DNA of 27,806 nucleotides from a virus. Where the stretch lies: positions 1 to 27,806 of IMG/VR virus record IMGVR_UViG_3300030450_000386; one strand, written 5' to 3'. Below, piece after piece: positions 1,794 through 27,113 of the stretch (within the stretch, counting starts at the first letter, position 1; each line of letters opens with the position of its first letter). The notes below the pieces were generated by a model. That model ran no database searches. It saw only the letters and a list, made by a program, of their open reading frames with translations, and was not told where the DNA came from. The position numbers were made by a program, and so were the translations under genes.

Positions 1794-1800
1794 AACATAT

Positions 1801-1814
1801 ATAAATATAAAGGT
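1801..1814 (-). promoter_or_regulatory. Late leader element before the scaffold gene
   Basis: The minus strand reads ACCTTTATATTTAT, 7 bases before the scaffold ATG. The core TTTATATTTAT is identical to the elements before the protease, the tail chaperone and the 53-residue gene at 27087. It occupies the 40-base gap after the protease stop. Confidence 0.5.
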
Positions 1815-1833
1815 GTTAAAATTGTTTATTTCT

Positions 1834-2832
1834 TTAGCGACTTACAGTCCTGTTTTTGATAGCAGCACATACTTTAGCAGCTACTTCTTCGTTGCCATAT
1901 TGTTCCATCTGGTCTTTCATACATTGATTCCAAGAATACTTTAACATCGCTTTGCGTTTACCATAAGCAACATATTCTAACATCTTGTATTTACGTTTGT
2001 ATTTTTTTCTTCCTGTTTTAGTATATAATTCTTCTTTCATCGTTGCTGTTGAATGGTCAGCACAAGGCATATATAATTTAACGCCATCAACAGTGTGGGG
2101 GTGTGAACCAGAACAACCCTTAAACATTTCAGCATATAATTCAGCTTCTTCTTTAGTTCTAAATAATGGCTCACCATCTAACGCACCGACAGGTTGTAAT
2201 TCATTCTCTAAAATAACGTCTTTGATTTTACCCATCATTACTTCATCAGGACAATCTAAACATACTTCATCTAGTATATCTTTTTCTCTTGATGCTTCAA
2301 TTAGTTTATCTGTGAAATATCCTTCTATGCTAAATCCTCTAACTTCTTTATTTTTGATAGCTTCCCATATTTCAGGATTATTTTCAGCAGATACTTGCAC
2401 AAACCAAGTGCCGACAGGCAAATTGTTAAAACCATACATATTAGACTTATCGTATTTCTTATCTTCTTTAATCCAGCTTTCCACGACAGTTAAACCTTGT
2501 ATTGGCTCTTTGTGTTCAAACGTGTGATTATTGTTGTTTAAACTCGACATAAACAGCTTCTGTGCGTGTTTAATCGTTTCTTTAGTAAAGAACACGTCAT
2601 ATTCTTCATTTGTATCTTTATCTAATCGTGGAATTTTTTTGTCAGGAATAAGGATAGCGCCTATTAGTTGCTTTTTATCTTCGTCTGCTTTTGCAAGTGA
2701 TAAGAAGTCATTATTAAAGAATACAAAGTTTTCTTCTATCGCTGGAAATTTAACAACTGATATTGCGTCTACACCAAAGTGGTCTGCAGTTTCATCTATG
2801 ATTAGTTCTATTAGTTTTCTTTTTTTACCCAT
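1834..2832 (-). CDS. XkdF-like prohead serine protease with C-terminal Cys/His modules
   Basis: A 332-residue protein. Residues about 45-180 resemble the phage XkdF-type (S78_2) protease domain: a first strand with AILIPDKKIPR, a conserved His in HTFEHKEP (His103/His107), a WFVQV strand, and the catalytic-Ser candidate in VRGFSIEGYF (Ser168). Its expected job is cleaving scaffold and capsid during maturation. After the protease come CLDCPDE (191-197), then a Cys/His module GCSGSHPH...MPCADH (Cys240, His244, His246, Cys257, His260) that could bind zinc, a Lys/Arg-rich linker, and a terminal WNQCMKDQMEQYG...VCAAIK motif. Such C-terminal modules are familiar from marine Bacteroidetes phage head proteins but have no assigned function that I know. 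It precedes the scaffold and capsid genes. The start follows a leader element. Confidence 0.75.
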   Translation of the reverse strand: MGKKRKLIELIIDETADHFGVDAISVVKFPAIEENFVFFNNDFLSLAKADEDKKQLIGAILIPDKKIPRLDKDTNEEYDVFFTKETIKHAQKLFMSSLNNNNHTFEHKEPIQGLTVVESWIKEDKKYDKSNMYGFNNLPVGTWFVQVSAENNPEIWEAIKNKEVRGFSIEGYFTDKLIEASREKDILDEVCLDCPDEVMMGKIKDVILENELQPVGALDGEPLFRTKEEAELYAEMFKGCSGSHPHTVDGVKLYMPCADHSTATMKEELYTKTGRKKYKRKYKMLEYVAYGKRKAMLKYSWNQCMKDQMEQYGNEEVAAKVCAAIKNRTVSR

Positions 2833-2839
2833 AACACAT

Positions 2840-2853
2840 ATAAATATAAAGTT
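2840..2853 (-). promoter_or_regulatory. Late leader element before the protease gene
   Basis: The minus strand reads AACTTTATATTTAT, 7 bases before the protease ATG, in the 32-base gap after the tape-measure stop. It has the same TTTATATTTAT core and the same spacing as the scaffold-gene copy. Confidence 0.5.
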
Positions 2854-2864
2854 GTCTATTTTGT

Positions 2865-4463
2865 TTATAAAGTAGCTTGTATGTCTAGTTCTTCTTGTAA
2901 TGCTTGGCTATCGCTAATATCAGTTTCTACTACATACGCTTGTACAGGTTGCATTCCATTAGCACCGCCAGGAATAATAGTTTCCATATTAGGAATAAGA
3001 TTGCCACCAACACCACCAATTTCAGATATAGGTGTTTGTGTAGATGAAACAGAAACATCACCACCACCTTCTTCACCTGGAATTTCAGTAGAATTTATTG
3101 CTTTCACATTAGCAAACCCTGAAGCAACAATACCTGCTGCGGCAGCTATACCCAAAATACCACCTTGTGCTAACGCTTTATTAGCAGCAACATAAGTATC
3201 TATAATCGCTGTTGCTGTGGCAAGTGCTTTACCTGCTGCTGTTTCTTTTCCTATTGCATTAGCTATGGTTTTCATAGCACCTGTTACAGCTTTATGTTTT
3301 TTATCTTGATATTCTTCTTCTTTCTTTAGTAGTTCTTCATTTTTCTTTATTAAAGCCTTGACTTCTTTAGAAGATAAATCTTCTGTTACTTCAAAACCTT
3401 TTTCTTTAGCTATTGCAAGTTGTTTTTCTAATGCTATTTGTTCTTTTAGTGCATCTGATTTTTCCTTTTCTACTTTAGCTGTAAATACACCAACTTCAGC
3501 AGCAACTCTTTTTTGTCTTAATATAGAAGCTGTTTGTAATTCTATTACTCTTGCGTTTGCTTCTGCTAACGCTTGTATTTCTGCTTCGCCTGATTTACCC
3601 AAGTCAACTAAATCCTGCATAGCTTTCGCCTTCTTCTCTGCGGTTTCCATTTCTATTGCTGCTACTCTTTTTTCTTCTGCAACAGCTTCTTTAAGTGCTG
3701 TTAATCTTTCTTTATTACTTTTAGTATCATCTTCTGCCAATAATCTTGATTTCGCAATTTGTTTATTTGCTTTTGCTCTAATCATTAACATCTCACGTTC
3801 TTCATCTCTAACTTCTTGCATTATGCCTGTTAGTCTTGCTGCTTCATCACCTTCTTTCTTCATTTCTTCTGTAATCTCTTTAAACTTCTTTTTAAGATTT
3901 TCAGCAGCTTCACCTCTTGCTACTTCGTCCATTCCTGTTGCTAATGTTAAGAAACTGTCTTTAGCTTCAGTAGCACCTTCTTTGATTAAATCTAAATCAC
4001 GCTTAAATACACCTTTTATAACTTTACCTAATGCACCGAAACTATCTATAAGACCTTGTATTCTGTTTACAATGTTTTCTTTTAATGCTGTCCATAAATC
4101 TTTAATAGCTTGTTGTGGATTAGAAAAACCGTCCATTAATGCTATGAATAAAGGTTCAGCAGCATCTCTAACAACATCAAACATAGCAGATAATTTAGCA
4201 CCTATACGTTCAAATCTTCTTGCTGTTTCTATATTTCCTGTGAATATATCTTTTAACTTAACAAATGCAGCTATAATAAGACCAATACCAATGGCTTTCA
4301 TAGCAGTTCCAAGACCTTTAAAACCACCTGCAAGACCTTTAGTTTTCTTTTTGGCAGTTTCAGCAGAACCACCTGTTTTGCCTAATGCACTATTAAGACC
4401 ATCAACGTCTTTTTTAGAATCGCCTGTATCTACATTTAAATTAATTGTTTTATCTATCGCCAT
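2865..4463 (-). CDS. Tail tape measure protein
   Basis: A 532-residue protein with tape-measure architecture. The N-terminal Gly/Lys-rich part is followed by a hydrophobic helix (GTAMKAIGIGLIIAAFVKL, about 52-70). A long, highly charged helical region rich in Glu, Lys and Ala (about 190-390) should form extended coiled coil. A second hydrophobic Ala/Gly stretch around 410-455 (ending GIAAAAGIVASG) precedes a low-complexity C-terminal tail. Such proteins set tail length and help DNA cross the cell envelope; at roughly 0.15 nm per residue this one would suit a short siphovirus-like tail near 80 nm. It overlaps the preceding 57-residue gene by 10 bases. It lies downstream of the large baseplate-type genes, an unusual order compared with lambda-like phages. 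Confidence 0.75.
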   Translation of the reverse strand: MAIDKTINLNVDTGDSKKDVDGLNSALGKTGGSAETAKKKTKGLAGGFKGLGTAMKAIGIGLIIAAFVKLKDIFTGNIETARRFERIGAKLSAMFDVVRDAAEPLFIALMDGFSNPQQAIKDLWTALKENIVNRIQGLIDSFGALGKVIKGVFKRDLDLIKEGATEAKDSFLTLATGMDEVARGEAAENLKKKFKEITEEMKKEGDEAARLTGIMQEVRDEEREMLMIRAKANKQIAKSRLLAEDDTKSNKERLTALKEAVAEEKRVAAIEMETAEKKAKAMQDLVDLGKSGEAEIQALAEANARVIELQTASILRQKRVAAEVGVFTAKVEKEKSDALKEQIALEKQLAIAKEKGFEVTEDLSSKEVKALIKKNEELLKKEEEYQDKKHKAVTGAMKTIANAIGKETAAGKALATATAIIDTYVAANKALAQGGILGIAAAAGIVASGFANVKAINSTEIPGEEGGGDVSVSSTQTPISEIGGVGGNLIPNMETIIPGGANGMQPVQAYVVETDISDSQALQEELDIQATL

Positions 4464-4627
4464 AGTATTCTTTTTATTTCTTTAAACATTCTTCTAAAAC
4501 TTGTGTGGTATTCTTCCATACCATAAACAAAATCTAATTCTTCATCTTTATAATCTACTAATTGAATGTGGTCTATTAGTGGGATCATTGTTTTTGCCAT
4601 TGTTTCTATATATTGTCTTAGTTCCAT
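4454..4627 (-). CDS. Small tail-module protein, unknown function
   Basis: A 57-residue protein starting MELRQYIETMAKTM. The start at 4625-4627 was chosen because it overlaps the stop of the preceding large tail gene by 10 bases, matching the coupling seen throughout; a longer in-frame reading to 4684 would lie inside that gene. The chain is helical and charged, with no Cys cluster or membrane segment, and ends FKEIKRILWR. It overlaps the tape-measure start by 10 bases. Position suggests a tail assembly role, but no family is recognised. Confidence 0.65.
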   Translation of the reverse strand: MELRQYIETMAKTMIPLIDHIQLVDYKDEELDFVYGMEEYHTSFRRMFKEIKRILWR

Positions 4628-7600
4628 ATTAAATAATCTCCGTTTTGTAATTCTATATTTTGTGAATTTTGATATATCGCCCAATTTTCTCCATAACCTA
4701 GAACCATATTGTTTATTCTATTAACATCAATTTCTGCTGATAATTGCCATACTCTTTTAGTGTCTGTTTGGCTATCGTCTAAACCAAATCTTAACACGCC
4801 ATTATTAATGTCAATATGTAGCGTACACGTTGTTGGATTTGCACCCTCTCTAATACTAAATTCTTCTTGACCACCTGCTGTGCTTAATTGTGTTGTTGTT
4901 CCGTTTACATTTTTAAACGCTGTGTAATAAGCAAAACCTTCTGTATATCCTAATGTGTATGTTGAACTTGTACCACCAACAACTGTTGCAATTCCTTTAA
5001 CACGAATAATCATATTCACGTTATTAGGTATTTTTAGTGGTGTATTAAATTTGTCTGCTTCAGGGTACGCATAACCTCTTGTGTTAGCGTTTGTATTTCC
5101 TGATAATACAATTCTATGTGATTCGCCTTCTAATTGTGGTATATCTCTTTTTTTAGTAGCATATTTAATTACAATATCATCACCATATAAAGGCAGCATT
5201 GGTTGGCTATATTTACTATTATTAACACCTCTAACTAATGGCGTGTTCAATCCACCTAATTTATTATAAATAAGTGTTTTTAATTGCCCTTTATTTAATA
5301 TGCTTTTAGGTGCAAATATGCTTTGCGTTCTAATAGGTAAACTTCCTGAATTAGCCATACAAGGATATAAGCCATTAGATGCTTGGTTTACTTCGTCCCA
5401 CATAACCACTCCACCATAACAAATACAACATTCAGGATTAGCATAAGCCCCTAGAAAACCTGAAGAAACATCAGGTGTGCAACCAGGCGTACCTTCAGGA
5501 CACCATAAATAAAATGTATTGCCTAGCAAGTTGCTATCATTAACATAACCCAAAACATAATCGCAACCTTCACAATGTGCTTTAGTATCTAATGATTTTA
5601 TTAATGTAACTTTTGTTGATGCTTTAGTTCCTACTTGATAATTAGATATTTTTAGTATTCGCCAATAACTATCCTTTATAAAAATTTCATCTGCAAAGCT
5701 AAAAGTAAATACATCTACTTCATTAAGATTTAAATAACACTCCATTATACGTGCTTCAGTACTATATATATTATCTAAATACTGTTGCCAATATAAACCA
5801 TATAAAGAGTTTTCAAACCAACTACCCGTATCGCTGTCGTAATTAAAGACAATTAAATTAGGTACTAATGGCGGTGATGCATTCCAATATAAAGATTTAG
5901 TATTTGTTGTTAGTTCAGAAACATTATTACTTCCTGGCGATACATCAAAAGGCGAACAAACAGCATATGTTGTAAATGAAAATGCTTCTGCTGTAGTCGT
6001 TCCTGAATTATCATAGACTCTGTGTAAATAATAAGTAACAGTTCCATTATTTACATCTTTTACAGTTGATGCAGTACCGCCATAAAAAAACAGTTTTGGC
6101 TTTGTTTTAACAATTTTGCTTTCAACAACACCATCTTTATCTTCATAGCTTATCTCATATTGTGGTGAAAAATTCGGAAGATAAGTTCCAAGCTGTGTAT
6201 CACTACTTGCAAACACTTGGCTATTTATAAATGGTGAAAATATAGAATGGTTTTTCAATTCGCCTGTAGCAAAATCATTATTAAAACTTTCTATCTTTAA
6301 ATGTCCATATACATTTACAGCAGGAAACCTTTCTTTAAATTCTTTATTATATAAATCTTCATCTTCTTGATCGCTTAAATGAATTGTTTTCTTTTGTATT
6401 TCTGTTGTGTCTTTTATAATAATTTCTTTGTCTAAATCTAGCTTGTCAGTCCAATACTTTAATTCACCACTTGCAATAAAATCGTTATAAGGTTCTATGA
6501 TTAAATTAGTATCATCATCAGGGTTAGTTAACACAACTAAATTAAATCTTTGTACAATGTCTTTTAAAAAATCTTTCTGTGTTATATCAGGGTCTATACA
6601 AGCAGGAATATCTACGGTTGCACCATATATATCTGTACTATAACCAACCCAATCAATTCTTATATTGCTATATAAATCATAACCAACCTCGAATGTAGTA
6701 ATACCAGAACCCAAAACGGTTATCATACTTTGCAACGAACCCAACACAATAGTGCCATCTCCTGTATAATTAGAAGCGACTATTACTATTTGTGCAGAAG
6801 CACCTGTGGGCATATTAGACAAATCTAATTCCCAATTTAGTAAAAGATAATTAAGACTAAACGTGCCACCTTCTTCTTGCGTGCCATAATTGTAGTCTAA
6901 GATGGGTGTATTTGTTGAAACATCAAAAGGTCTTAGTATGGCTTGTAGCTCAATAGAGTTTCCTGAATACGCTTCAATATCACCAGAAATTGCTGCAATA
7001 TGCCTAATACTTACTTGCGACATATTAACATCTTCTTTAGTAAAATAATGATACGTTTCATTCCATATATTATCGCTGTCTTGTGGCGCTGTATATCCTG
7101 CTGTGGGTGTAATTGTGTCCGCAACTACTAGATGTTCGCTACTTTGTGAAGAAGAACCTGATGATGTTGCAGAACCCCAAACTGCACTATTTCCAACGTC
7201 CATATATCCGCTAGGGTTAGCGTTTGAATTGGTTGTAGGTATGGCAGATAGTTCTAAATGGTTTCCTGTTGTCATAAATAACTTTCCAAAATAAGAACCA
7301 TTTAAAAAAGTAGAAGTATAACTAAATCCTGCTTTAGCACAAATCAAATCTATCATTGTCTTTAATTGAATAGACGGTCTAAACTGCGACATTGAAACGA
7401 TATTATCATAAACAGCTTCTACTCCATCACTTGAAACCATAGCATCTATTGTGGTTTGATCTAATCTTAAATATCTTTTAAGGTCGTTTCCACTTGCATC
7501 TGTATCATTTGGATTGTAATAAAAGTTTTCTTGAGTAATTGAAGTTGGATATACAATTTTAGAAACGCCTGCATCAGAATCATATAAAGAACCACCTGCT

Positions 7601-9566: not shown

Positions 9567-9573
9567 AATTTAT

Positions 9574-10666: not shown

Positions 10667-11406
10667 CTAATACTTATTGTTCTGTTTTATATTATAGTCT
10701 TGCGTATATGCTAAGTATGTTAAAACTTCTAATATAGGCAGTTTTGTTATTTTTTGTATATCAAGTATTGATGTGGACAAACTATATAGCGTGTTATACC
10801 ACCCCCATTTAGATTGTAAACTTACGCCTTTTGTTGTTTCAGTTCCATTGCTTCCAAATAGTGGACTGAACTTTTCGCCAATGTCAACCCTAAATTCAAA
10901 AAAAAACCTAGCGAACTTAATGCTATATCCATTGGACAATCTTTAAATAATTCTTCTTTAAATTCTTCAGGATTGTATTCTTCTATGGCATATCTTTCAC
11001 CTCTTTTAAATGTTACCTTTCTATACAGTATGGACATAATCACGTGCAGGTTTTTAATTGGGTCGTCTTTACAATATGCTTCCAAATCAATATATTCACC
11101 TGTTGTTATTGCAGAAAGATTAGGACAGAAACCATATTCTTCTTTTTTAAAAACAAACGTCTTTCTAAATTGTTGTTTATCTGGTTCTGTGTCTATCATT
11201 TTCTTTAATATATCCATTATTTCAATCAGGTCTTTATAATTCATTTTCTTAACTATCGCTGTTGTAGTTCCGCATAATAAAGCTAAACTATCTACAATCT
11301 TTTTTTTCTCGCTTCCTTTACCTAATTGAATGTCTACATATTTTTGGTATGTTCCTATTGTTATATCCGACCATTCTGTAGGTATGCTTAATTTCACCTG
11401 TTTCAT
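10667..11406 (-). CDS. Frameshifted tail assembly chaperone (gpGT-like), product of -1 ribosomal slippage
   Basis: The 0 frame (10822-11406) and a second open frame ending at 10667 overlap. They can be joined by a -1 shift on a run of nine T (10898-10906), where the 0 frame reads GGT TTT TTT TTG. The fused product would be about 246 residues: 169 from the 0 frame and 77 from the -1 frame. The extension contains SKWGWYNTLYSLSTSILDIQKITKLP, which matches the conserved WGWY...I..I..ITKL block of the T part of marine phage tail chaperones. The second frame has no ATG of its own before the overlap, only a TTG. Chaperone pairs of this kind coat the tape measure before tube assembly. Confidence 0.75.
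10822..11406 (-). CDS. Tail assembly chaperone, 0-frame product (gpG-like)
   Basis: A 194-residue cytoplasmic protein. It opens with KLSIPTEWSDITIGTYQKY, then a helical region (VDSLALLCGTTTAIVKKM), and EYGFCPNLSAITTGEYIDLEAY, followed by HVIMSILYRKVTFKRGERYAIEEY. This order is typical of G-type chaperones in marine Bacteroidetes phages. It follows the terminase after a 33-base gap holding a leader element, so it is the first gene of the tail block. Without slippage, translation ends at 10822 with ELKQQKA. Confidence in a tail chaperone role comes mainly from the frameshift arrangement plus the WGWY extension. Confidence 0.75.
   Translation of the reverse strand: MKQVKLSIPTEWSDITIGTYQKYVDIQLGKGSEKKKIVDSLALLCGTTTAIVKKMNYKDLIEIMDILKKMIDTEPDKQQFRKTFVFKKEEYGFCPNLSAITTGEYIDLEAYCKDDPIKNLHVIMSILYRKVTFKRGERYAIEEYNPEEFKEELFKDCPMDIALSSLGFFLNLGLTLAKSSVHYLEAMELKQQKA
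10898..10906 (-). other. Slippery sequence for -1 programmed ribosomal frameshift
   Basis: Nine consecutive T on the coding strand give the heptamer T TTT TTT in the 0 frame, which allows both tRNAs to re-pair after slipping back one base. The -1 frame is open on both sides of the site and continues to 10667. No clear downstream pseudoknot was identified by eye. A homopolymer length error in sequencing would look similar, so the run length matters. Confidence 0.7.
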
Positions 11407-11411
11407 TACTA

Positions 11412-11426
11412 ATAAATATAAAAGTT
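11412..11426 (-). promoter_or_regulatory. Late leader element before the tail chaperone gene
   Basis: The minus strand reads AACTTTTATATTTAT, 5 bases before the chaperone ATG, within the 33-base gap after the terminase stop. The identical 15-mer occurs at 27099-27113, more than 15 kb away. Confidence 0.55.
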
Positions 11427-11439
11427 AATAATTCGTTTT

Positions 11440-14829: not shown

Positions 14830-15055
14830 CTTTAAATGCTTTTAGTATTTTTTCTTTTAACTTATCATCATCTAAAATTTCAAAAACCTTATGTAAAACT
14901 AAGTTCATTCCTTCTCTTATTTTTTCCATATACATTTGTTCTTCGCCTAAAAAATAATTCTTTCCTTTTTCGTCTTTAAATTTACAAATCTTTTTGTCTT
15001 TTAAATCTGAATTATCATAGCTTTTCAATGCTCTTATTATTCTGCTTTTTTTCAT
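14813..15055 (-). CDS. Small charged protein, unknown function
   Basis: An 80-residue, Lys- and Glu/Asp-rich protein, MKKSRIIRALKSYDN..., with a C-terminal helical half (KIREGMNLVLHKVFEILDDDKLKEKILKAF). It starts by ATGA overlap with the sigma-like gene and ends 17 bases inside the next gene. No Cys, signal or membrane segment. Not recognised; co-transcription with the sigma-like factor could hint at regulation. Confidence 0.65.
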   Translation of the reverse strand: MKKSRIIRALKSYDNSDLKDKKICKFKDEKGKNYFLGEEQMYMEKIREGMNLVLHKVFEILDDDKLKEKILKAFKDDEKK

Positions 15056-15558
15056 CTTTCGTTTTTTAGGTAGTTTTTAACGTTTCTAATTGCTTTATAT
15101 AACGTGTTCTTATTTATCCTTGTTTCTCTTGCCATTTCAGATAAACTATAACCTTCACGATAATATATTCTGAAACATTCTGCATCAAACCAATATAAAT
15201 CCTTTAGCTTTTCTTCTATCCATTCTAAGCGTTCTTCTACTTCTTCTTTTTCTTTTTTAGTTTCTACTACTGTATCAGGACTAATGCTTTCTATTGTTGT
15301 TGTGGTGTGATATTCGTAATACTTTCTGTATTTGTAATGGTATCTGCTGGTCTTTGATTGGTATTGATTTAGCATAACTCTAACGACATAAAATGTCATC
15401 TGTTTCTTTTTGATTATTTCGTTGATCCGTTTAGTGTCACATTTATATAGTTCTTCAATTACAAAACTTAACAAGTCATCATCATCTTTGCCGCTGGTTA
15501 TGTTGTAGGCAATATCCTTTAACTTATTATAGTTGTCAGTTAAGTAATCGTTTAACAT
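15052..15558 (-). CDS. Sigma-70-like RNA polymerase sigma factor (phage, ECF-like)
   Basis: A 168-residue protein. The N-terminal half (LTDNYNKLKDIAYNIT...DDDDLLSFVIEELYK) has the look of sigma region 2, with the helix that binds polymerase followed by a basic/aromatic stretch (SRYHYKYRKYYEYH). The C-terminal half carries a region 4 helix-turn-helix: ECFRIYYREGYSLSEMARETRINKNTLYKAIRNVKNYLK. It would redirect host RNA polymerase to phage promoters. It lies just before packaging and virion genes, the right place for a late activator. Candidate targets are the AT-rich leader elements in this window. The region 2 assignment is weaker than region 4, so a plain HTH regulator is the alternative. Confidence 0.65.
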   Translation of the reverse strand: MLNDYLTDNYNKLKDIAYNITSGKDDDDLLSFVIEELYKCDTKRINEIIKKKQMTFYVVRVMLNQYQSKTSRYHYKYRKYYEYHTTTTIESISPDTVVETKKEKEEVEERLEWIEEKLKDLYWFDAECFRIYYREGYSLSEMARETRINKNTLYKAIRNVKNYLKNER

Positions 15559-15833
15559 ATTTTCACAATAGAGGGTATATTTATTTGTTTCATTAAGTTA
15601 TATTCAACACTTGATATTTTACTTGCTTCTAATTCTATTACATTATCAAATCTCTTATCCACTTTCTTATAAATATAATTTAATATATTTTTGTTTTTTT
15701 TCAAATCTCTTAAAATAAAAGATAATTCAGCACCACTATCAAATAAAATTGTGAACAAGTAATTGTTAGTATCGTGATAATTCCAATACAATCTTTCTTT
15801 TCTTGTATTAAAAAATGTTGGTTTAATTTTCAT
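15552..15833 (-). CDS. Unknown 93-residue protein
   Basis: MKIKPTFFNTRKERLYWNYHD..., mixed alpha/beta with no recognised motif. It starts by ATGA overlap with the VRR-NUC gene and overlaps the sigma-like gene by 7 bases, so it is part of the same translation unit. A hydrophobic strand (NYLFTILFDSGAELSFIL) is not long enough to be a confident membrane helix. Confidence 0.65.
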   Translation of the reverse strand: MKIKPTFFNTRKERLYWNYHDTNNYLFTILFDSGAELSFILRDLKKNKNILNYIYKKVDKRFDNVIELEASKISSVEYNLMKQINIPSIVKIC

Positions 15834-18286: not shown

Positions 18287-18490
18287 TTATTTAATAGTTA
18301 ACAATTCACTTAATTCAATATCAAGTATTCTACATAATCTAACAGCTTCACTTATTTTTAAAGTGTCAGCAGATTCAATTTTTGATAACATTGTAGGATA
18401 TGACATATTCATATAAGAAGCTAACTGTTTCTTGTTGATCTTATTCTTGAACATTGCATATTCTATCTGTCCTTTTAGTTTTTGATTCAT
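18287..18490 (-). CDS. XRE-family helix-turn-helix regulator
   Basis: A 67-residue single-domain DNA-binding protein with a Cro/cI-type HTH: IEYAMFKNKINKKQLASYMNMSYPTMLSKIESADTLKISEAVRLCRILDIELSELL. Helix 2 is KKQLASYM and recognition helix 3 is SYPTMLSKI. It is the first gene leftward from the divergent control region, where direct repeats and palindromes lie, so it probably binds there and controls one or both directions. It lacks a multimerisation or cleavage domain, so it looks more like Cro than a cI repressor. It ends 6 bases before the next start. Confidence 0.8.
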   Translation of the reverse strand: MNQKLKGQIEYAMFKNKINKKQLASYMNMSYPTMLSKIESADTLKISEAVRLCRILDIELSELLTIK

Positions 18491-19392: not shown

Positions 19393-19394
19393 TT

Positions 19395-19682: not shown

Positions 19683-19695
19683 GCAATAGAAGGAC

Positions 19696-19720: not shown

Positions 19721-19754
19721 TGGAGATGACGTTAAAACCTACGGCAGATGCCCT

Positions 19755-19889
19755 CTATTTTTTCAACTTTTTAATCAGTTCTTTAAAATCTTGTCGCATA
19801 CTTTTTATGTCATATACTTTATTGTTGTTTTTATCATAAGTATAATATGCACCAAGTTTTATATTTTCACTGTAAATATGTTTTGCCAT
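19755..19889 (-). CDS. Small leftward gene at the end of the lysis block, unknown function
   Basis: A 44-residue protein, MAKHIYSENIKLGAYYTYDK..., ending with a basic helix (DFKELIKKLKK). It starts 14 bases after the metallophosphoesterase stop, in the same direction, and ends before the convergent gap. Sensible composition and spacing support it, but nothing is recognised. The opposite strand has an open frame over the same bases that looks like a shadow. Confidence 0.6.
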   Translation of the reverse strand: MAKHIYSENIKLGAYYTYDKNNNKVYDIKSMRQDFKELIKKLKK

Positions 19890-19903
19890 ATATTATAGTT
19901 TAG

Positions 19904-20641
19904 TTATAACTCCATTAACAAATTTATAGGTAATTTTCCATTATTCATAATAATTCCGCAACCTATAGCGGGTTTTTTTCCTGCCTTTGCGTACGCAAAG
20001 CTATATTCTGAAAAGTTTATACCGCAACCGACTTGAAGACCAAACACTCTAAAGTTTTGACCTACATAGTGTTCGCAATATGCTTGTGTATGTAAATGTC
20101 CTTGAACTGTATTCATCATATCTGCTCTACATTTAGTTCTTGCTGTTCCACCCTCACCGTGTAGATACTGAACACCGTCTTTTACATATCTTTCTACAAA
20201 GTTCCAATTAGGCACTTCTAAGACTTCTTTATAGCTTTTAATCCACTTACTAGGAATAGCAGATGTTTGTGCTTTACGCATAACCATTCTATCGTGGTTT
20301 CCAATAATAACAGTAGCTTTAGGAAATGCTTTATACCAACGAGCAATTCTTTTAATAGCATATTCTAATTCATCAGCACCACCCATTCCATCAGCAGATG
20401 TTTCGTGATATGAAGAATAATGATTGTCTATAATATCGCCAATAAAGACAACTTCTGTACAGTCAAATTGATCATATTTTGATATGCAAAATTCTAAGTA
20501 TTTATCTAATGAAAATGGTTCGTGTAAATCACCAATAACAAGGACGTTATTTAAACCATTACCTTCTGAAAGGCGTAATTCTTTTATTAAGTCGTGTTCT
20601 GACTTTGTTAACCTTAACCTATATTCTTTTAATTGTTTTAT
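19904..20641 (-). CDS. Calcineurin-like metallophosphoesterase, apparent ATA start
   Basis: The leftward frame from 20716 to 19904 contains every metal-binding motif of the family: GDLHEP (Asp38, His40), GDIIDNH (Asp69), GNHDR (115-118 for NHDR), LHGEGG (His161) and GHLH (181-184), numbering from an ATA at 20639-20641. The first ATG (20386) lies at residue 86, after two essential motifs, so it cannot be the true start. No ATG, GTG or TTG exists in frame upstream of the motifs. The ATA overlaps the holin stop as ATAA, just where every neighbour uses ATGA. With it the protein is 245 residues. It likely hydrolyses phosphoesters (nucleic acid or nucleotide); the substrate is unknown. A frameshift from the holin frame is the alternative. 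Confidence 0.8.
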   Translation of the reverse strand: MKQLKEYRLRLTKSEHDLIKELRLSEGNGLNNVLVIGDLHEPFSLDKYLEFCISKYDQFDCTEVVFIGDIIDNHYSSYHETSADGMGGADELEYAIKRIARWYKAFPKATVIIGNHDRMVMRKAQTSAIPSKWIKSYKEVLEVPNWNFVERYVKDGVQYLHGEGGTARTKCRADMMNTVQGHLHTQAYCEHYVGQNFRVFGLQVGCGINFSEYSFAYAKAGKKPAIGCGIIMNNGKLPINLLMEL

Positions 20642-21018
20642 TTGCTTTTCACTTTTTCTATACTCCGCCCACCAAAGTAAGCACCAATCACCGTTATCAA
20701 CGTAAGCTGTAAAAGGTCAATCCAATTTTCCTTGACGGAAAAACTTATGACACCACCTTCAATAAAAATTAGTATTATAGTTGATACTACTAAAAAAGCT
20801 AATGTTAAAGGTCTTATGTTTGCAGGAAGCCAACCAGCTTTATTATCGGATTCCCACCTTCTTGTAATTTGTTCTTCTGCTTTTGCTCTTGCTTCTAAGA
20901 ACAATGCTTCAAATTTAATTTTTAATTCTTGCTTTTCTTCTTTGGTTGTTGTTAAGTTGTCAACAAGGTTATTCACATCAAGATTTAAATTGCCAAATAA
21001 TTTATTTAAAAAATTCAT
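20638..21018 (-). CDS. Holin (two-helix, GTA-holin-like)
   Basis: A 126-residue protein. A cytoplasmic, charged N-terminal half (LNLDVNNLVDNL...EARAKAEEQITRRWESD) precedes the motif GWLPANIRPLTLAFLVVSTIILIFIEGG, a membrane helix (about 72-90), and a second one (WIDLLQLTLITVIGAYFGGRSIEK, about 101-121). The W-x-x-x-N-I-R-P-L before the first helix is typical of holins in the GTA_holin_3TM group. It starts by ATGA overlap with the M15 endolysin gene (ATG at 21016-21018; a TTG six bases upstream is less likely). It would permeabilise the inner membrane to release the endolysin. Confidence 0.8.
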   Translation of the reverse strand: MNFLNKLFGNLNLDVNNLVDNLTTTKEEKQELKIKFEALFLEARAKAEEQITRRWESDNKAGWLPANIRPLTLAFLVVSTIILIFIEGGVISFSVKENWIDLLQLTLITVIGAYFGGRSIEKVKSK

Positions 21019-21512
21019 ATACAATTATAATTTATAATAGTTCTATATTTTGTTTTGTTGTTTTCGTCTTTATATGCTACTAATGTTTGTCGTCTATTGT
21101 CAACAACTTTCCAACTTAAATGAATCCAATCAGGTGCAGTAGGGTCTATGTGTTCTGTTGCATTTCCGAACTCTAATATACATTGGTCAAAATCTAAATC
21201 TAAATCAATTAAAGCATCATAGATTTTTATGTTATCCATTTTACCACGTTTAACATATTGTAAATCAACAGCTTCATAACGACAATGTTGTGAATTAGAA
21301 GATGAACCAATAGCTTCTGAAAGTTGTGGTGACCTGTAGCCACTTGTTATTCTCAAAGAACCGACTACATTCCTGAGTGGTTGTAAGAGTGAAGTGGCTA
21401 ATAAGGTCAATTTCAAAATACCTTCTTTTGAGGGTTCATTATCTATACCAAGACGTAAAGCTGTACTACTTCTTGTTAATTCTTTTAATGTAAAATTCTT
21501 TGATAATCTCAT
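21015..21512 (-). CDS. Peptidase M15 endolysin
   Basis: A 165-residue protein with the M15A fold: FTLKELTRSSTA at the start, a helix (LLQPLRNVVGSLRITSGYRSPQLSEAIGSSSNSQH), SQHCRYEAVD (His78 and Asp85, zinc ligands, with Tyr where Gly is usual), and WIHLSW (His133) as third ligand. Members cleave peptide cross-links of peptidoglycan. There is no signal peptide, so it depends on the holin downstream. The gene overlaps the thioredoxin-like gene upstream and the holin downstream by ATGA, giving a coupled lysis cassette. Confidence 0.9.
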   Translation of the reverse strand: MRLSKNFTLKELTRSSTALRLGIDNEPSKEGILKLTLLATSLLQPLRNVVGSLRITSGYRSPQLSEAIGSSSNSQHCRYEAVDLQYVKRGKMDNIKIYDALIDLDLDFDQCILEFGNATEHIDPTAPDWIHLSWKVVDNRRQTLVAYKDENNKTKYRTIINYNCI

Positions 21513-21850
21513 TCAAATTTCTTTAACATTATTTTATCTATTTCTTTTTGTATATCTTTTTTTGTTGCCTCTAGTTCCATCATTATATTAGCTTCAAATC
21601 TAACCACTTCTTCATCTTCATCAAATACAATAATTGTAGGCACTGCTTTTATTTTGTGCTTTTCTTTTAAATCAGGATTATGGCAAATAACAACACTATC
21701 AATATCACAGTCTTTTAAAACAGTAATATCAAAATCATTGTTTGCGTTCCATTCACTATTAAAATGCACTACAGAAACCTGTCCAAAACAAATACCAAAA
21801 CCAAAGAACAACAAAGCAAGTAACACTAATAAAACAACATCTAATTTCAT
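21509..21850 (-). CDS. Membrane-anchored thioredoxin-like protein lacking the CxxC pair
   Basis: A 113-residue protein. Residues 4-24 (DVVLLVLLALLFFGFGICFG) form a membrane anchor. The rest has the thioredoxin order: strand VSVVHFNSEWN (the usual W-C-x-x-C position reads WNANND), DIDSVVICHN, and the cis-Pro strand AVPTIIVFDEDEEVVRFEAN, followed by a C-terminal helix. The two catalytic cysteines are absent, so it cannot be a classical oxidoreductase. It sits within the lysis cassette and may assist envelope disruption, act as an anchored scaffold, or block host thioredoxin partners. The function is inference. Confidence 0.65.
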   Translation of the reverse strand: MKLDVVLLVLLALLFFGFGICFGQVSVVHFNSEWNANNDFDITVLKDCDIDSVVICHNPDLKEKHKIKAVPTIIVFDEDEEVVRFEANIMMELEATKKDIQKEIDKIMLKKFE

Positions 21851-21852
21851 AT

Positions 21853-22131
21853 CTATTGATTTAAGTTATATATCCTATCGTCAATGGTGTTTAGCTTATC
21901 TTCAATAGCATCTAATTTTTTTGAATTGGACATAATCGTGTTTCTAACCAATTCATCTTTTAGCTGATATTCAGTAGAGCTAACCCAATTTCCATTTTCT
22001 AATGCTTTTTTATTAGCATCTATATCAGCTTTTAAAGTAAAATATGTACTTGACACTGAAACAACCATAGCAACAACTATTCCGATTGTTTTAAGGTCTA
22101 ATGTTAGTTCTGATTTTTCGCTTATTTTCAT
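21853..22131 (-). CDS. One-helix membrane protein with coiled coil (holin- or spanin-like)
   Basis: A 92-residue protein. After a short charged start, residues 14-33 (KTIGIVVAMVVSVSSTYFTL) cross the membrane. A long charged helical segment (ADIDANKKALEN, then DELVRNTIMSNSKKLDAIEDKLNTIDDRIYNLNQ) can form a coiled coil. This layout fits an accessory lysis membrane protein such as a spanin-like or holin-like component. It lacks the lipoprotein motif of an o-spanin. Start ATG overlaps the stop of the tiny Cys-rich gene (ATGA). Confidence 0.6.
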   Translation of the reverse strand: MKISEKSELTLDLKTIGIVVAMVVSVSSTYFTLKADIDANKKALENGNWVSSTEYQLKDELVRNTIMSNSKKLDAIEDKLNTIDDRIYNLNQ

Positions 22132-22211
22132 TTTTTACATTTTTTACAGCAATTAATACAAAATTTGCCAAAAGTTAAAAATTTGATTGCTTTACATAAT
22201 AATTTCTTCAT
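22128..22211 (-). CDS. 27-residue Cys/Lys-rich peptide
   Basis: The sequence opens MKKLLCKAIKFLTFGKF and ends with a Cys/Lys-rich tail in which cysteines occupy positions 6, 18, 21, 22 and 25. It starts 1 base after the preceding stop and overlaps the next start by ATGA, so it is probably translated. The hydrophobic, basic first half could insert in a membrane; the Cys-rich tail could bind zinc or form disulfides. It lies in the lysis cassette. No family is known to me. Confidence 0.55.
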   Translation of the reverse strand: MKKLLCKAIKFLTFGKFCINCCKKCKK

Positions 22212-22212
22212 T

Positions 22213-23235
22213 TTATATGATTATTAAGTTAATTCCTAAGTTAATTGTATAGTTTTCTCTATTAAAGTATTTTAAATACTCTAATTGTGTGTAAAATGAC
22301 AACAAACGATTTAATTTCCAGTTTGCAATAACGCCAAAGTCATAATCGTTAGTGTCTGAACCGTATTCTGTTATCTTTTCGCTTATAAAGAAGTAATTGC
22401 CATAAGCTAAGATAAAAAAGCTGTCTTTGTGTAGATAATAAGACAAACCTGCAACGCCAGAAAGCGTGTATTGATTGCCAAGCTGATTTAATCTATCTCT
22501 ATTATATTTTGCAGGTATTGTAGCATAGTATTGCTGAAATTGTGCTGTATTTTGAGCAACTACATTATCGTTAAACAACCAACGATAAAACGACTGTTCC
22601 ATTCTATCTAAATGTCCATTATTATTTGTGTCAATAAAATAAAATTCATTAGTGTAACCTAATTCTGTTGCAACTGCTTGAAAATCGTTATAATTTGAAA
22701 AATCACGTTTAAAGACGTCTAAGCCATAAATGGGGTGATACCTCACAACACCGCCAAAAGTGGCTCTAAACCCACCTAAATCAGCTTTTAAGCGTAAATC
22801 AAGCGACTTGTATTGTAAATCAATGTAGCCGTTGTTAGAAGATTCAATTTTAATGCTTGTAAAATCGCCTACATAACGAAACCATATATTGTGACTTTCA
22901 TATTCACGACCTAAATTCCTGATTCGTTCATATTGTAATAAATACTCAAATTTATCAACAGGGGAACGAAATATGCTCGCGTTCTTTTCCAAGCCGTCGT
23001 AATAAAACTTCGGTTTCTTTTCAAACTTATATCTTGACAGCTTTTTAACACCTATAAAATAACGATAATTAGCACCGTCATCTGGTGTTGTTTCTATTAG
23101 TTGATTATTTATGTATTGATAAGTTTCTATTGGTGCTATTGTAGAATTTAAAGAAGCACCGCCATAAATAGTAGCATATTTATAGAATTGTCCGAAAGAC
23201 AACAAAGGCAACAATAAAAATAAAAACCTAATCAT
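22213..23235 (-). CDS. Secreted outer-membrane-type protein with an EF-hand loop
   Basis: A 340-residue protein. The ATG at 23233-23235 is chosen over a TTG at 23256 because it gives a clean signal peptide MIRFLFLLLPLLSFGQ with a Bacteroidetes-type SFGQ end, and because it overlaps the preceding stop as TGATG. The mature part is rich in alternating aromatic strands (FYKYATIYGG, YRYFIGVKK, HNIWFRYVGDF, LDLRLKADLGGFRATFGG, FFILAYGNYFF, LSFYTQLEYLKYF), suggesting a beta-barrel of the outer membrane, ending LGINLIII. Residues 202-213 read DTNNNGHLDRME, a perfect EF-hand calcium loop. A secreted protein is unusual for a phage structural region: superinfection exclusion, lysis or host-surface modification are possible. 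It could also be a host-derived gene. Confidence 0.75.
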   Translation of the reverse strand: MIRFLFLLLPLLSFGQFYKYATIYGGASLNSTIAPIETYQYINNQLIETTPDDGANYRYFIGVKKLSRYKFEKKPKFYYDGLEKNASIFRSPVDKFEYLLQYERIRNLGREYESHNIWFRYVGDFTSIKIESSNNGYIDLQYKSLDLRLKADLGGFRATFGGVVRYHPIYGLDVFKRDFSNYNDFQAVATELGYTNEFYFIDTNNNGHLDRMEQSFYRWLFNDNVVAQNTAQFQQYYATIPAKYNRDRLNQLGNQYTLSGVAGLSYYLHKDSFFILAYGNYFFISEKITEYGSDTNDYDFGVIANWKLNRLLSFYTQLEYLKYFNRENYTINLGINLIII

Positions 23236-23768
23236 CACAGTATTTTTGTGTAGCAATATGTCAAGTAAACATCACAAGACCAACCACCATTAAATCCTGT
23301 GCTTGATGCCCACATTTTAAATGACTTATTGACCAATGAACCCGCATCAACACCCGATGCAGTTGTGCCACCACTAAACACATAACTTGCATCAGCACTT
23401 TTTGCTCCATAAAACCGACTTATTCTGTCCCAATATAAAGTATCCTGTGAATCGTCCCACCCAAATATCAAATTATTATTAGAACTTTCATTAGCAAATG
23501 CGTGGGTGACAAGAACAGTTGCGCTAATAGGTGTAACCATATAGCCACTTAAAGCACCCACCAAGACTTTTGCTGTGCTGTCTAAAGCCAAAACCTCTGT
23601 ATTGTTTAGTGAAAACTTGTCTGTCTGTATAACGAATTTACTATCTAATTTTTTTGATGTTCCTGCACTACTACCTGTAGTGTCGGACACATCGACAATC
23701 ATATATAAATCGCCACTACCCGTTTGTTCTTCTAGTGCTGTCTTGTCTGTTAATCTTTGTCCTGCCAT
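23235..23768 (-). CDS. Fibre-like virion protein
   Basis: A 177-residue protein. The N-terminus GQRLTDKTALEEQTGSGDLYMIVDVSDTTGSSAGTSKKLDSKFVI resembles the conserved N-terminal module of small appendage proteins in Flavobacteria phages. A C-terminal beta-rich, Ser/Gly-rich part (DTLYWDRISRFYGAK, SGGWSCDVYLTYCYTKIL) may bind a surface. There is no signal peptide. It lies just after the connector and before the secreted protein. A receptor-binding role is likely but unproven. Confidence 0.5.
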   Translation of the reverse strand: MAGQRLTDKTALEEQTGSGDLYMIVDVSDTTGSSAGTSKKLDSKFVIQTDKFSLNNTEVLALDSTAKVLVGALSGYMVTPISATVLVTHAFANESSNNNLIFGWDDSQDTLYWDRISRFYGAKSADASYVFSGGTTASGVDAGSLVNKSFKMWASSTGFNGGWSCDVYLTYCYTKIL

Positions 23769-23850
23769 TGTTTAATTTTTTAATATAATTTTTTAGCTTC
23801 TTAAAATTTTCCAAACTACTTGGATATTTACGCCTTTCTTTAACACCCAT
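23716..23850 (-). CDS. Small basic ORF overlapping connector and fibre genes
   Basis: A 44-residue, Lys/Arg-rich reading frame, MGVKERRKYPSSLENFKKLK... It overlaps the connector stop by 11 bases and extends 53 bases into the fibre-like gene. The first part (KERRKYPSSLENFKKLKNY) looks protein-like, and it fills a 71-base gap otherwise empty. The deep overlap with the next gene lowers confidence. Confidence 0.4.
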   Translation of the reverse strand: MGVKERRKYPSSLENFKKLKNYIKKLNNGRTKINRQDSTRRTNG

Positions 23851-24421
23851 ATATAGTAATATCTGCACCTTGCAAAAATCCCTTTAATCTGTTGCTTCTT
23901 GGCACGTTAACATCTAAGTTAATTCCTGCAAAATAATTGTTCACAGTAGGGTCTAAATCAGCACCAGAGTTTGTGCTGTATTCAGGAAAAGAACTTGTAT
24001 TATTCCTGATATAATCTATTAACCTTTCTCTGTAAAATTCAGCAGCATCTTTTGACCTGTCCATTAATGGTTTTATATCTTCATAAGTAGCTGAAGAACC
24101 TGTATCAGTGTCACCCATAACGACAACGGAATTATTAACAAATCTTAGTCGTAAAAAAGGTGCTAATTCTGTAAATGAAAATTGTACTAATGCAGGTTGT
24201 ATGTATGTTTCCACAAGTGTTTTATAAGCACCTGATAATGAACCTGCTTGTATATCAGCTTTTAGTTTAGCATCTAAATCAGTTCCAAGAACAGGTAATA
24301 TAAACATATCTTGTGCAAGTAGTATGTAAGGCATAATAATGTTGTCATCTACTGAACCACCTAATGCTGTGTCTTTTTTTATTCTTGTACTGCTAATGTA
24401 TAATGTATGTTGTATCGCCAT
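23840..24421 (-). CDS. Head-tail connector protein (DUF6712-like)
   Basis: A 193-residue helical protein. The pattern (DTALGGSVDDNIIMPYILLAQDMFILPVLGTDLDAKL, then TLVETYIQPALVQFSFTELAPFLRLRF and MDRSKDAAEFYRERLIDYIRNN) matches the DUF6712 proteins found after portals in Bacteroidetes phages and resembles head-tail connectors. The repeated TLVETYI...QPAL helix packing would make a ring at the portal vertex. It starts 9 bases after the portal stop. Confidence 0.65.
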   Translation of the reverse strand: MAIQHTLYISSTRIKKDTALGGSVDDNIIMPYILLAQDMFILPVLGTDLDAKLKADIQAGSLSGAYKTLVETYIQPALVQFSFTELAPFLRLRFVNNSVVVMGDTDTGSSATYEDIKPLMDRSKDAAEFYRERLIDYIRNNTSSFPEYSTNSGADLDPTVNNYFAGINLDVNVPRSNRLKGFLQGADITIYGC

Positions 24422-24430
24422 AATTTAAAT

Positions 24431-26290
24431 TTATTTTACGCCTGGATAATGTCCGTCATTAGGCATATTAACTGGTGCTTTTTGCGCCTTGTCTATTCCT
24501 CTTGGTCTTGGCATATAGCTTTTAGGAATGCTATTTGCTTTATTATAATCGTCCATTTTTTTATCAGAAACCTTTAATAATGATTTTGACTTTAATCTAT
24601 ATAAGATGACCTTCCAAGCGTGTCTGCAATAAACACCACCTTTAAACTTAAATAAATCATAGGGTTTACCCTTGTGTCCTAATTGTCTATTAACTCCCGC
24701 CCTACTTGCTTTGTCAATATCTTCTATTCTATACACAAAACCAGCTCTTGCTAGTGTCATCATATTTTGACAAAAACGTCTGCTTTTGCCACCTTTACTG
24801 CTCTTTTTAATATACTTAAAGCGAATTCTATAAAATGATTTATCTAAATAACTGTTTTTATCTTCTCTACTACCTATTTCATCTTTAGATATATTTGTAC
24901 TTTGTTCTTTAGTAGCAAGGTTTTCTTTTTTATATTGTCCAATTAAAGACCCAGCCCATTCTTCATAATCTTCTATTTCACCTTCGTCTTTTTCATCTAC
25001 TATTTCCCAATCATCATCTACTACTATTTCGCCATTTAGATTTTCTAAAACTTCGTCAAATTCATCATCTGATAATTCTTCTCTAAATTCGTGCTTTAAA
25101 TCTTCTTGTTCTATATCTTCTTTTGTAACACCTTCTTTTTCTTGGTCATCTTCTGACTGTGTTTTAACAACATCTAAATCAATGAAATCAGCAGGTTTAA
25201 GCGTTTTAAAGTATAAATCAAGATTTATATCATTTACTTTAAATATCTTGTCTAATCCTCTTAAAAGTATGTTTTGGAAAGGTAGTACGACTGTATTGTT
25301 AAATAAACTGTACGCATCTCTTAATTCATCTGCATTTGAACCTAATCCATTGCCACCTTCTGTACGTATTCCAAATAATAGTGGCGATACGCAACGGTGT
25401 CCTGCTAGGATTTGATTTACAGCTTGTTTAGACATTCCTTCCCAAGCTGACTGTGCGTCATTCATTTGGATTGGCTCTATAACAGGTGCTGTTTCTTTAC
25501 CATCATTAAATGTTATAAGTATTTTACCCGCATTTCCACTACCTGCAAACTTTTGGTTTAGTTGTCTTTCTATTGTTCTTCTTTCTTCTTCAGTAGGTAC
25601 ACCATTAGAGAAACCAACGTGCATAGATGGTGTCATTCCTGATGTTATATTAGATAAATGAAACTGTGCTATTTCTAACTCCATTTGAATCCAATCTGTA
25701 GCAGCTACATAATCAGGTGCAAAGCCATAAAATAAAGCGGGGTTTTTATCTCGGATCATTAGAATTTGACTTGCACTTGTTCTATCTTCTGTATTAAAAG
25801 CAGCATATGGTCTTGGTCTGTATTCTGATTTTCTAACCTTAGACCAATCAGCAGAATAATAATAAGTGTCTATTTCGCCATCTACCATTTTACCACTTCT
25901 AATATATTGTGCAGGTATATGTAAAATCTTAGCTATTTTGCTTCTATCTCTACTCCAAATAACATTAACATAACAACCACCAAATAGCTTTAAATCCATT
26001 GCTAAATCCTTTAGCACATCATCACCTGAATTATGTAGTAATTCTGTTAGTCGCAAATAACTTTCTTTGTTTGCTTCGCTTTCATCTGCATTAGTAGCAG
26101 CTAATCCTTCGCCATAAATCATAGCACCGATAGATTTTATTAATGCACCATTAATAGCACTACCTAAAAATAATTCTAATAAATAATTAGGATATAAATT
26201 ATCTTCACCAAAAGAAACCCAATCTTGATTTGGTCTTTCAACTAAATGAGGAATGTTGTAATGTGATAATTTTACTAAGTTTAAATTCAT
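24431..26290 (-). CDS. Portal protein with a C-terminal Cys/His module
   Basis: A 619-residue protein. The N-terminal two thirds look like a phage portal: WVSFGEDNLYPNYLLELFLGSAINGALIKSI near the start, LHIPAQYIRSGKM, a helical stem region, and GHRCVSPLLFGI. Residues about 375-450 are extremely acidic. From about 486 a separate domain begins: RFCQNMMTLARAGFVYRIEDIDKASRAGVNRQL, then LFKFKGGVYCRHAWKVILYR (Cys507, Cys555, His557). This domain resembles a module found in other marine phages at the C-terminus of head protease or MuF-like proteins. Here it is fused to the portal, while the protease in this genome carries a different C-terminal module. The portal forms the DNA channel and binds terminase. 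Confidence 0.85.
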   Translation of the reverse strand: MNLNLVKLSHYNIPHLVERPNQDWVSFGEDNLYPNYLLELFLGSAINGALIKSIGAMIYGEGLAATNADESEANKESYLRLTELLHNSGDDVLKDLAMDLKLFGGCYVNVIWSRDRSKIAKILHIPAQYIRSGKMVDGEIDTYYYSADWSKVRKSEYRPRPYAAFNTEDRTSASQILMIRDKNPALFYGFAPDYVAATDWIQMELEIAQFHLSNITSGMTPSMHVGFSNGVPTEEERRTIERQLNQKFAGSGNAGKILITFNDGKETAPVIEPIQMNDAQSAWEGMSKQAVNQILAGHRCVSPLLFGIRTEGGNGLGSNADELRDAYSLFNNTVVLPFQNILLRGLDKIFKVNDINLDLYFKTLKPADFIDLDVVKTQSEDDQEKEGVTKEDIEQEDLKHEFREELSDDEFDEVLENLNGEIVVDDDWEIVDEKDEGEIEDYEEWAGSLIGQYKKENLATKEQSTNISKDEIGSREDKNSYLDKSFYRIRFKYIKKSSKGGKSRRFCQNMMTLARAGFVYRIEDIDKASRAGVNRQLGHKGKPYDLFKFKGGVYCRHAWKVILYRLKSKSLLKVSDKKMDDYNKANSIPKSYMPRPRGIDKAQKAPVNMPNDGHYPGVK

Positions 26291-26292
26291 AG

Positions 26293-26844
26293 TTAATTGG
26301 TTATATATACGCTGTCTGTATCAGCGTCATTAGTTGTATATTCAGTATAAATTACAGATCTAAAATCGTTACTGCTACCTACAGCTTTTCTAGCTTTCAT
26401 ATTTAACAGTCCATTATATAGTGTTGCTGTTGCATTGTCGGGGTTTAATTCTCCTGATGAATTTGTTTGATATATTGTTATGTCATAAAATCCTAACGGA
26501 AATTCATCTGTTCCTACTATAACTTCTCCAGCACTTAAATCTTCTGTAGAAGATGTATTTACACTATATTTAAAACTAAGTGCTATTTGTCTTTTATATT
26601 TATTTAAATTAGTGCCAACAGCAGGACTAAAACCTGTTCTAGTAAACACTTTTTCTTTTCCTGTTTGCTGACTTTTTAACTTTATTAGAAAATATGGAAA
26701 AGACATAGCATAATATGTGTCATCACCAATAGTAGTAGTTGTAAATGTTGGCGTTCCTACAATTTTATCTGCTAAATTTAAATAAAATTGAACAGTGAAT
26801 GCAAAAGCAGTAGTTGTTTGATTATTTATAAGTGCTTGTATCAT
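26293..26844 (-). CDS. Structural protein before the portal, unknown role
   Basis: A 183-residue, beta-rich protein, MIQALINNQTTTAFAFTVQFYLN..., with many Thr, Ser and Tyr and no Cys. Segments YYAMSFPYFLIKLKS and YDITIYQTNSSGEL are strand-like. It sits two bases before the portal start and after two tiny genes. The composition suits a virion protein, perhaps capsid decoration or neck. Not recognised. Confidence 0.6.
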   Translation of the reverse strand: MIQALINNQTTTAFAFTVQFYLNLADKIVGTPTFTTTTIGDDTYYAMSFPYFLIKLKSQQTGKEKVFTRTGFSPAVGTNLNKYKRQIALSFKYSVNTSSTEDLSAGEVIVGTDEFPLGFYDITIYQTNSSGELNPDNATATLYNGLLNMKARKAVGSSNDFRSVIYTEYTTNDADTDSVYITN

Positions 26845-26849
26845 ATAAT

Positions 26850-26933
26850 CTAACTAATTCTTTCCATTATTACTTCACCTGCTTCACTAATTCCAACATA
26901 TACCCAAACTTCTTTACTTTCCTCTTTAGTCAT
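26850..26933 (-). CDS. Possible 27-residue gene between the small Lys-rich gene and the structural gene
   Basis: Reads MTKEESKEVWVYVGISEAGE..., overlapping the end of the preceding 53-residue gene by 8 bases and ending 5 bases before the next start. The compact fit and sensible composition support translation. Length is too short for any family call. Confidence 0.45.
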   Translation of the reverse strand: MTKEESKEVWVYVGISEAGEVIMERIS

Positions 26934-27087
26934 CTTTCTTTTTCTTTTTAGGTTTTTCTTCTATGAATAAAGCATTTCTAACGCTTTCATTAAGTCCTGC
27001 TATTTGCTTTTGTGTTAGTTCGTCTAATGGTGTATTAAGCGTGTCAATGCTTTTGCCTTCCCATTCTTTTTTAAGTTTCCAAGCCAT
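26926..27087 (-). CDS. Small protein with Lys-rich tail, unknown function
   Basis: A 53-residue protein, MAWKLKKEWEGKSIDTLNTP, with a middle helix (LDELTQKQIAGLNESVRNALF) and a C-terminal EEKPKKKKKDD tail. The first gene after the terminator at 27142-27159, and it has a leader element 11 bases upstream, suggesting it opens a transcription unit into the portal region. Possibly a small head factor; role unknown. Confidence 0.65.
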   Translation of the reverse strand: MAWKLKKEWEGKSIDTLNTPLDELTQKQIAGLNESVRNALFIEEKPKKKKKDD

Positions 27088-27098
27088 AGTGTTTTATT

Positions 27099-27113
27099 AT
27101 AAATATAAAAGTT
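27099..27113 (-). promoter_or_regulatory. Late leader element after a terminator
   Basis: The minus strand reads AACTTTTATATTTAT, identical to the copy before the tail chaperone, 11 bases before the ATG at 27085-27087. It follows a strong terminator by about 30 bases, so new transcription must begin nearby or the terminator must leak; this favours a promoter function. Confidence 0.55.

Follow-up and report, generated by a model that had tools for sequence, protein, structure and literature searches.

The AT-rich sequence TTTATATTTAT recurs just ahead of late-gene start codons in the phage genome studied here, which raises the question of whether it acts as a promoter or as a leader for translation. 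The window, i.e., the whole stretch of DNA that was analyzed, is a virus record of 27.8 kb (27,806 nucleotides) in which nearly all genes run leftward. The portal protein shares 34% identity with its counterpart in Nonlabens phages P12024S and P12024L, and the tape measure protein has a match in Croceibacter phage P2559Y, so a marine Bacteroidota bacterium is the probable host. For Bacteroidota phages, transcription programs have hardly been mapped, and in a literature search mostly confined to journals open without subscription, neither a late promoter for these phages nor the present element was found described. The reading favored here, at a probability of about 0.8, is that the sequence belongs to a phage-specific two-box late promoter, most likely read by an ECF-like sigma factor encoded by the phage.

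Five exact copies of TTTATATTTAT were found in the window against 0.38 expected, a number reached in no shuffle. Four of them, as a preliminary description had reported, precede leftward starts by 5, 7, 7, and 11 bases, and the identity of two 15-mers was also confirmed, AACTTTTATATTTAT being found twice with zero mismatches. The fifth copy (26593–26603, plus strand) lies antisense within a gene, has no upstream box of the kind described below, and was set aside as a chance match. When three mismatches were allowed, a window scan returned 13 matches to the 15-mer against 13.3 expected, i.e., no enrichment, so the AT-rich core alone is weak evidence.

The shared leader proved real, but the earlier description covered just half of it: every one of the four copies forms the downstream portion of an element made of two parts. 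A search of the window for the full pattern, AAAC[AG]A-N12-TATATTTAT (AAACRA-N12-TATATTTAT), gave four matches against 0.13 expected, and no further match was found elsewhere with up to one mismatch. The downstream box reads TATATTTA at all four sites.

All four elements lie on the minus strand. Element 1 (1801–1827; AAACAA at 1822–1827, N12, TATATTTAT at 1801–1809) precedes gene 1110–1793, a late gene with no family match that adjoins the structural gene 109–1101. Element 2 (2840–2866; AAACAA at 2861–2866, N12, TATATTTAT at 2840–2848) precedes the head maturation protease-like gene 1834–2832, which matches PHROG 24921 and PHROG 3017. Element 3 (11412–11438; AAACGA at 11433–11438, N12, TATATTTAT at 11412–11420) precedes gene 10822–11406, the first gene past the terminase and the head of the tail cluster, matching PHROG 32199 of unknown function. 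Element 4 (27099–27125; AAACAA at 27120–27125, N12, TATATTTAT at 27099–27107) precedes the small gene 26926–27087, which has no family match and heads the portal cluster. Among the names proposed earlier for these genes, "protease" was upheld by family search, while "scaffold" (1110–1793) and "tail chaperone" (10822–11406) found no family support; gene 1110–1793 is a probable scaffold gene. Elements 2 and 3 fill their intergenic gaps: there the preceding gene ends in a stop codon that overlaps the upstream box or lies right next to it. The leaders at 41–66 and 27781–27806, which had been described as related, contain neither box and are not the same element; no element was found ahead of gene 27185–27784 in any of 87 orthologues.

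For comparison among relatives, about 240 loci were fetched and the upstream regions of orthologues were read for every gene (about 38 families). With up to two mismatches, and in related sequences that are not independent of one another, the element was present ahead of 63 of 68 orthologues of gene 1110–1793, 67 of 75 of gene 1834–2832, 67 of 81 of gene 10822–11406, where the sequence further upstream varies among relatives, and 61 of 66 of gene 26926–27087, with a spacer of 12 nt in all 61. The other gene families yielded zero to two occurrences each at the same threshold, except for the M15 peptidase gene (21015–21512), which showed the element in 6 of 41 cases and whose upstream region is coding sequence of the preceding gene. 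Across the relatives, 227 of 282 distinct contexts have AAAC[AG]A beginning at one and the same place, 16 bases ahead of the TTTATATTTAT core.

An unbiased scan of the large relatives, allowing up to one mismatch and a spacer of 12 or 13, gave 103 matches on the late-gene strand versus 6 on the other; the four starts account for 84 matches and an internal site ahead of the sigma gene, described below, for 12. Of 25 whole related records, 21 contain the exact pattern, with 75 matches altogether; within any one of the 21 all matches share a strand, and the reversed control matched nowhere in the 25 records. The most distant record that still carries the element (G028) has two matches, and its sigma protein is 38% identical. 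The element was absent from two GC-richer relatives (L164 and L165), and no matching element was found at the late genes of Croceibacter phage P2559Y. Absence from the same starts in related phages, or equal frequency elsewhere, had been named in advance as grounds for abandoning the idea; neither was observed. L164 and L165 contain TTATTTA-like boxes of their own, which are candidates. In genome contigs, the bipartite matches listed were scattered single occurrences in unrelated AT-rich bacteria and archaea and were rejected as chance.

These data also bear on the explanation that the copies have no function and reflect either random matching in AT-rich DNA or common ancestry. It draws on the composition of the region (approximately 70% AT) and on the unenriched 15-mer, and it conflicts with the shuffle statistics, the strand asymmetry, and the controls. 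Both boxes are more conserved than the spacer and flanks, the downstream box being nearly invariant, and most other starts have no element. This explanation can be regarded as refuted.

The second question was whether the element acts on transcription or on translation. The preliminary description had offered as one option a translation leader, in which the element would be an AT-rich unstructured ribosome site on longer mRNAs begun upstream; the element is indeed AT-rich and adjoins start codons, and Bacteroidota do without Shine–Dalgarno pairing. However, the spacer between the boxes is constant at 12 bases (13 in a minority of cases), whereas the downstream box stands at a gene-specific distance of 5 to 13 bases from ATG. 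The favorable base for translation in Flavobacterium is A at −3 (PMC6847099), yet genes with the element have A at this position in only 34% of cases and G in 61%, versus 70% A in other genes. Strong translation would be expected of the capsid-like gene 109–1101 and gene 27185, and their leaders are A-rich, with 92% A at −3 and no element. The element thus departs from a Bacteroidota translation leader, which is characterized by an A-rich context with A at −3 and −6 and a constant position relative to AUG, and one copy, the internal one, has no adjacent start codon.

The sequence upstream of the elements weighs against the translation leader as well. The terminator noted earlier before element 4 was confirmed as an intrinsic terminator (GGGGT-TTTATT-ACCCC-TTTTTTT, 27136–27158, minus strand) that ends 10 bases ahead of the upstream box, and a terminator-like structure occurs in 79 of 84 orthologues. 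In one relative (L002), a terminator replaces the sequence upstream of the protease gene, and the element is kept between the terminator and the gene. A hairpin alone is no proof that a promoter is needed, because 86 of 93 relatives share a terminator-like hairpin with a short T-run (73–94 in the window), between the capsid-like gene and the 27185-type gene, and no element follows this hairpin; it is possibly an attenuator or an mRNA stabilizer setting relative dosage. Taken as a whole, the translation leader is largely refuted and was judged very improbable.

The other option offered at the outset, a late promoter for the phage sigma-like factor, gained support from the fixed spacing, strand bias, near-exclusive placement before the late clusters, and upstream terminators, and further from the retention of the element where the upstream sequence was replaced, from the sigma-like gene, carried by 33 of the 36 large related records, and from the architecture in phage P12024S presented below. 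From these sequence features, the two-part element is very probably a promoter.

The position of the transcription start may also be read from the alignments. The sixth base after TATATTTA is a purine in 243 of 243 aligned sites from the four families, and in some protease orthologues this purine is the A of ATG; it is plausibly the +1 position. The −7 box of host promoters ends at −5 (PMC6847099), so +1 would lie at nearly the same distance as in host promoters. The predicted starts lie near 1796, 2835, 11407, and 27094 for elements 1 to 4, giving leaders of 3, 3, 1, and 7 nt, respectively. Since the start codon stands 5 to 13 bases past the downstream box, predicted leaders range from 0 to about 8 nt.

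Late mRNAs begun at these elements would accordingly be near-leaderless, a prediction judged rather likely to hold. Counting against it, leaderless mRNA is rare in Flavobacterium hosts and makes up only 5.5% of the mRNAs in F. psychrophilum (PMC9723704). The arrangement resembles the TA-led leaderless genes, in which the start codon follows a −10-like box by about 10 bases and little or no leader remains; among 37 Bacteroidetes/Chlorobi genomes, only one was reported to have such genes (PMC3160421), and in the window, by contrast, the arrangement is confined to phage late genes.

The protein regarded as the probable reader of the element is encoded at 15052–15558 (minus strand, 168 aa). ECF (group IV) sigma factors consist of a sigma2 domain, a linker, and a sigma4 domain, amount to about 170–200 aa, and have no other sigma domains. 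The predicted structure of the phage protein (pLDDT 77, pTM 0.45) contains sigma2-like helices, a disordered linker at residues 80–99, and sigma4-like helices at residues 101–166. The protein matched the sigma factor family PHROG 1740 with an E-value of 2.6e-4, and its matches to Pfam regions 2 and 4 were weak. In Foldseek searches of the model against the PDB, the leading matches were mostly ECF sigma factors (best E 0.015), and the viral matches included phage sigma-70 proteins down to E 5e-9. No match of the protein was found among annotated phages. The assignment as a sigma factor, drawn from these family and model comparisons, is of moderate strength.

The three large records in which no orthologue of this gene was detected are fragments of 21–23 kb. 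Two features of phage-sigma-dependent late promoters are present together, namely a phage-specific motif recurring upstream of late gene clusters in coding orientation and a sigma-like protein that co-occurs with it, and recognition of the element by the ECF-like sigma is quite likely. In the proposed mechanism, AAAC[AG]A would take the place of the −35 element and TATATTTAT that of the −10/−7 element, with 12 bases between them. The phage sigma would reprogram the host RNA polymerase core to read the element, with sigma region 4 contacting AAAC[AG]A and region 2 melting TATATTTAT. The four copies would start four late units (portal, tail, protease, and scaffold/capsid), presumably late in infection, with transcripts beginning 0 to about 8 nt before ATG.

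The internal copy, AAACAA-N13-TATATTTAT (15669–15696, minus strand), lies inside gene 15552–15833, about 110 bases before the start of the sigma gene. Its TATATTTAT was present in 29 of 30 sequences compared, including the window. In gene 15552–15833, 10 of 48 conserved degenerate codons show no synonymous change, and all four codons of the box are among them (hypergeometric p 0.0011). In the upstream box, asparagine is encoded by AAC in 23 of 28 sequences, versus 27% AAC across the genes of the window. This constraint suggests that the internal copy is a promoter of the sigma gene within coding sequence, through which the sigma would probably raise its own expression, i.e., positive autoregulation.

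A competing possibility is that a sigma factor of the host, either the primary one or one of the ECF group, reads the element as a phage late promoter, assisted by an activator from the phage that binds AAAC[AG]A. The primary promoter of Bacteroidota (−33/−7, TAHHTTTG) has a −7 box that resembles TATATTTA and lies at about the same distance from +1; TATATTTA fits 7 of 8 positions of TAHHTTTG (PMC6847099), and AAACAA could serve as an activator site. Host promoters, however, carry a near-invariant G at −5 and no AAAC[AG]A box, and the window element shows the reverse, with TATATTTA and no G at −5 at all four sites. The window has fewer copies of the host-type box TAHHTTTG than expected (22 against 35), the sigma-like gene is conserved in the phages, and the downstream box in P12024S is CGTTA, unlike the host −7 box. 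Reading by a host sigma is therefore considered unlikely. Promoters of the E. coli sigma70 type were also sought in the window and gave no signal, with 108 matches versus 99 expected from shuffles.

Phage sigma factors with promoters of their own are already known; for the element itself, its two-box design beside start codons, and the clade variants, no description was found in the literature searched. In phages phiEco32 and 7-11, a phage sigma likewise reads short phage-specific promoters before the structural cluster, and their motif was also found by comparison of intergenic regions (PMC4331800). The phiEco32 promoter is a single box (TAATGTATA), whereas the window element has two boxes at fixed spacing with the start codon 5–13 bases on, and it occurs in Bacteroidota-type phages.

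The late promoter of T4 (TATAAATA, read by gp55) also combines a short AT-rich late box with a small phage sigma. T4 late promoters have no −35 box. The window element does have an upstream box, and TATAAATA was found only on the opposite strand.

ECF promoters have −35 boxes that contain AAC, and many of their −10 boxes contain CGT. Measured against the ECF type with AAC at −35, CGT at −10, and a spacer of 16–17 nt, the window element has AAC and lacks CGT, and because CGT is absent it was not filed as a canonical ECF promoter. No anti-sigma gene was noticed either. Bacterial ECF promoters, including that of Flavobacterium SM6 (PMC9723704), consist of two boxes, as in the window, and P12024S has AAAACAA and CGTTA at a spacing comparable to that of ECF promoters.

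In phage P12024S (L470), the pattern AAACA[AC]-N14/15-CGTTA[AC]T[AT] was found 3–4 bases before the ATG of seven annotated genes (146, 2998, 5379, 21248, 23929, 25168, and 26769), at sites that carry no promoter annotation in the record; the strict pattern had 5 matches versus 0.12 expected. The downstream box, CGTTAATA, differs from that of the window, and the upstream box and the geometry are common to both. Measured between the last base of AAACAA and the last base of TTA, the distance in the window is 20 nt (21 at the internal site); in P12024S it is 20 nt (19–21).

P12024S gp33 matches Pfam Sigma70_r2 with an E-value of 1.4e-5, and its gene stands beside a VRR-NUC gene and upstream of the terminase, the gene order being the same as in the window. 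A profile of the window sigma gave no significant alignment with gp33, so the link between the two proteins rests on synteny and fold class. Judged from synteny, the two systems likely descend from a common ancestor; since the box downstream of AAACAA differs between the clades, drift in the specificity of region 2 has to be assumed.

Possible further variants were seen in two more distant relatives. In L011 (positions 2845, 4386, 11873, 13631, 15851), TTATATATTA[AG]T stands directly before the ATG of four genes, with a CAAAAT-like sequence at a constant place upstream of the TTATATATTA boxes. In L008, a candidate box, CTATTATATAA, occurs three times close before late starts.

Joined together, these parts would describe a large clade of marine Bacteroidota phages, mostly uncultivated, with its own ECF-like sigma for the switch to late transcription, an autoregulatory promoter hidden in the coding sequence of the gene before sigma, and essentially leaderless late mRNAs, in which AAACA was kept and the −10-like box was replaced, the replaced boxes being TATATTTA, CGTTAATA, and possibly TTATATATTA and CTATTATATAA. 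This joint claim is tentative, its chances being put slightly below even. If true, it would provide a natural series of sigma–promoter co-evolution across phage clades, as well as leaderless late mRNAs in hosts that rarely use leaderless mRNA.

Clade-specific variants would allow sigma specificity to be compared with promoter boxes, and the pair described here is a candidate orthogonal sigma–promoter pair for Bacteroidota. A reliable late-promoter signature would make late operons legible from sequence in a clade with many marine virome records. The prediction of leaderless mRNAs is directly testable in the cultured Nonlabens phages P12024S or P12024L.

Two minor observations concern other parts of the window. 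At its two ends, 1–66 and 27781–27806, similar genes begin (MANKRYDFSCDITR and MACDITRGRLIDCK, respectively). The gene is present in a single copy in the 11 relatives checked, and the contig break may lie inside a duplicated or variant gene. Upstream of the HTH regulator gene 18287–18490, the sequence TATTATTG is conserved in 14 of 24 orthologue leaders and is possibly an early promoter of the host type.
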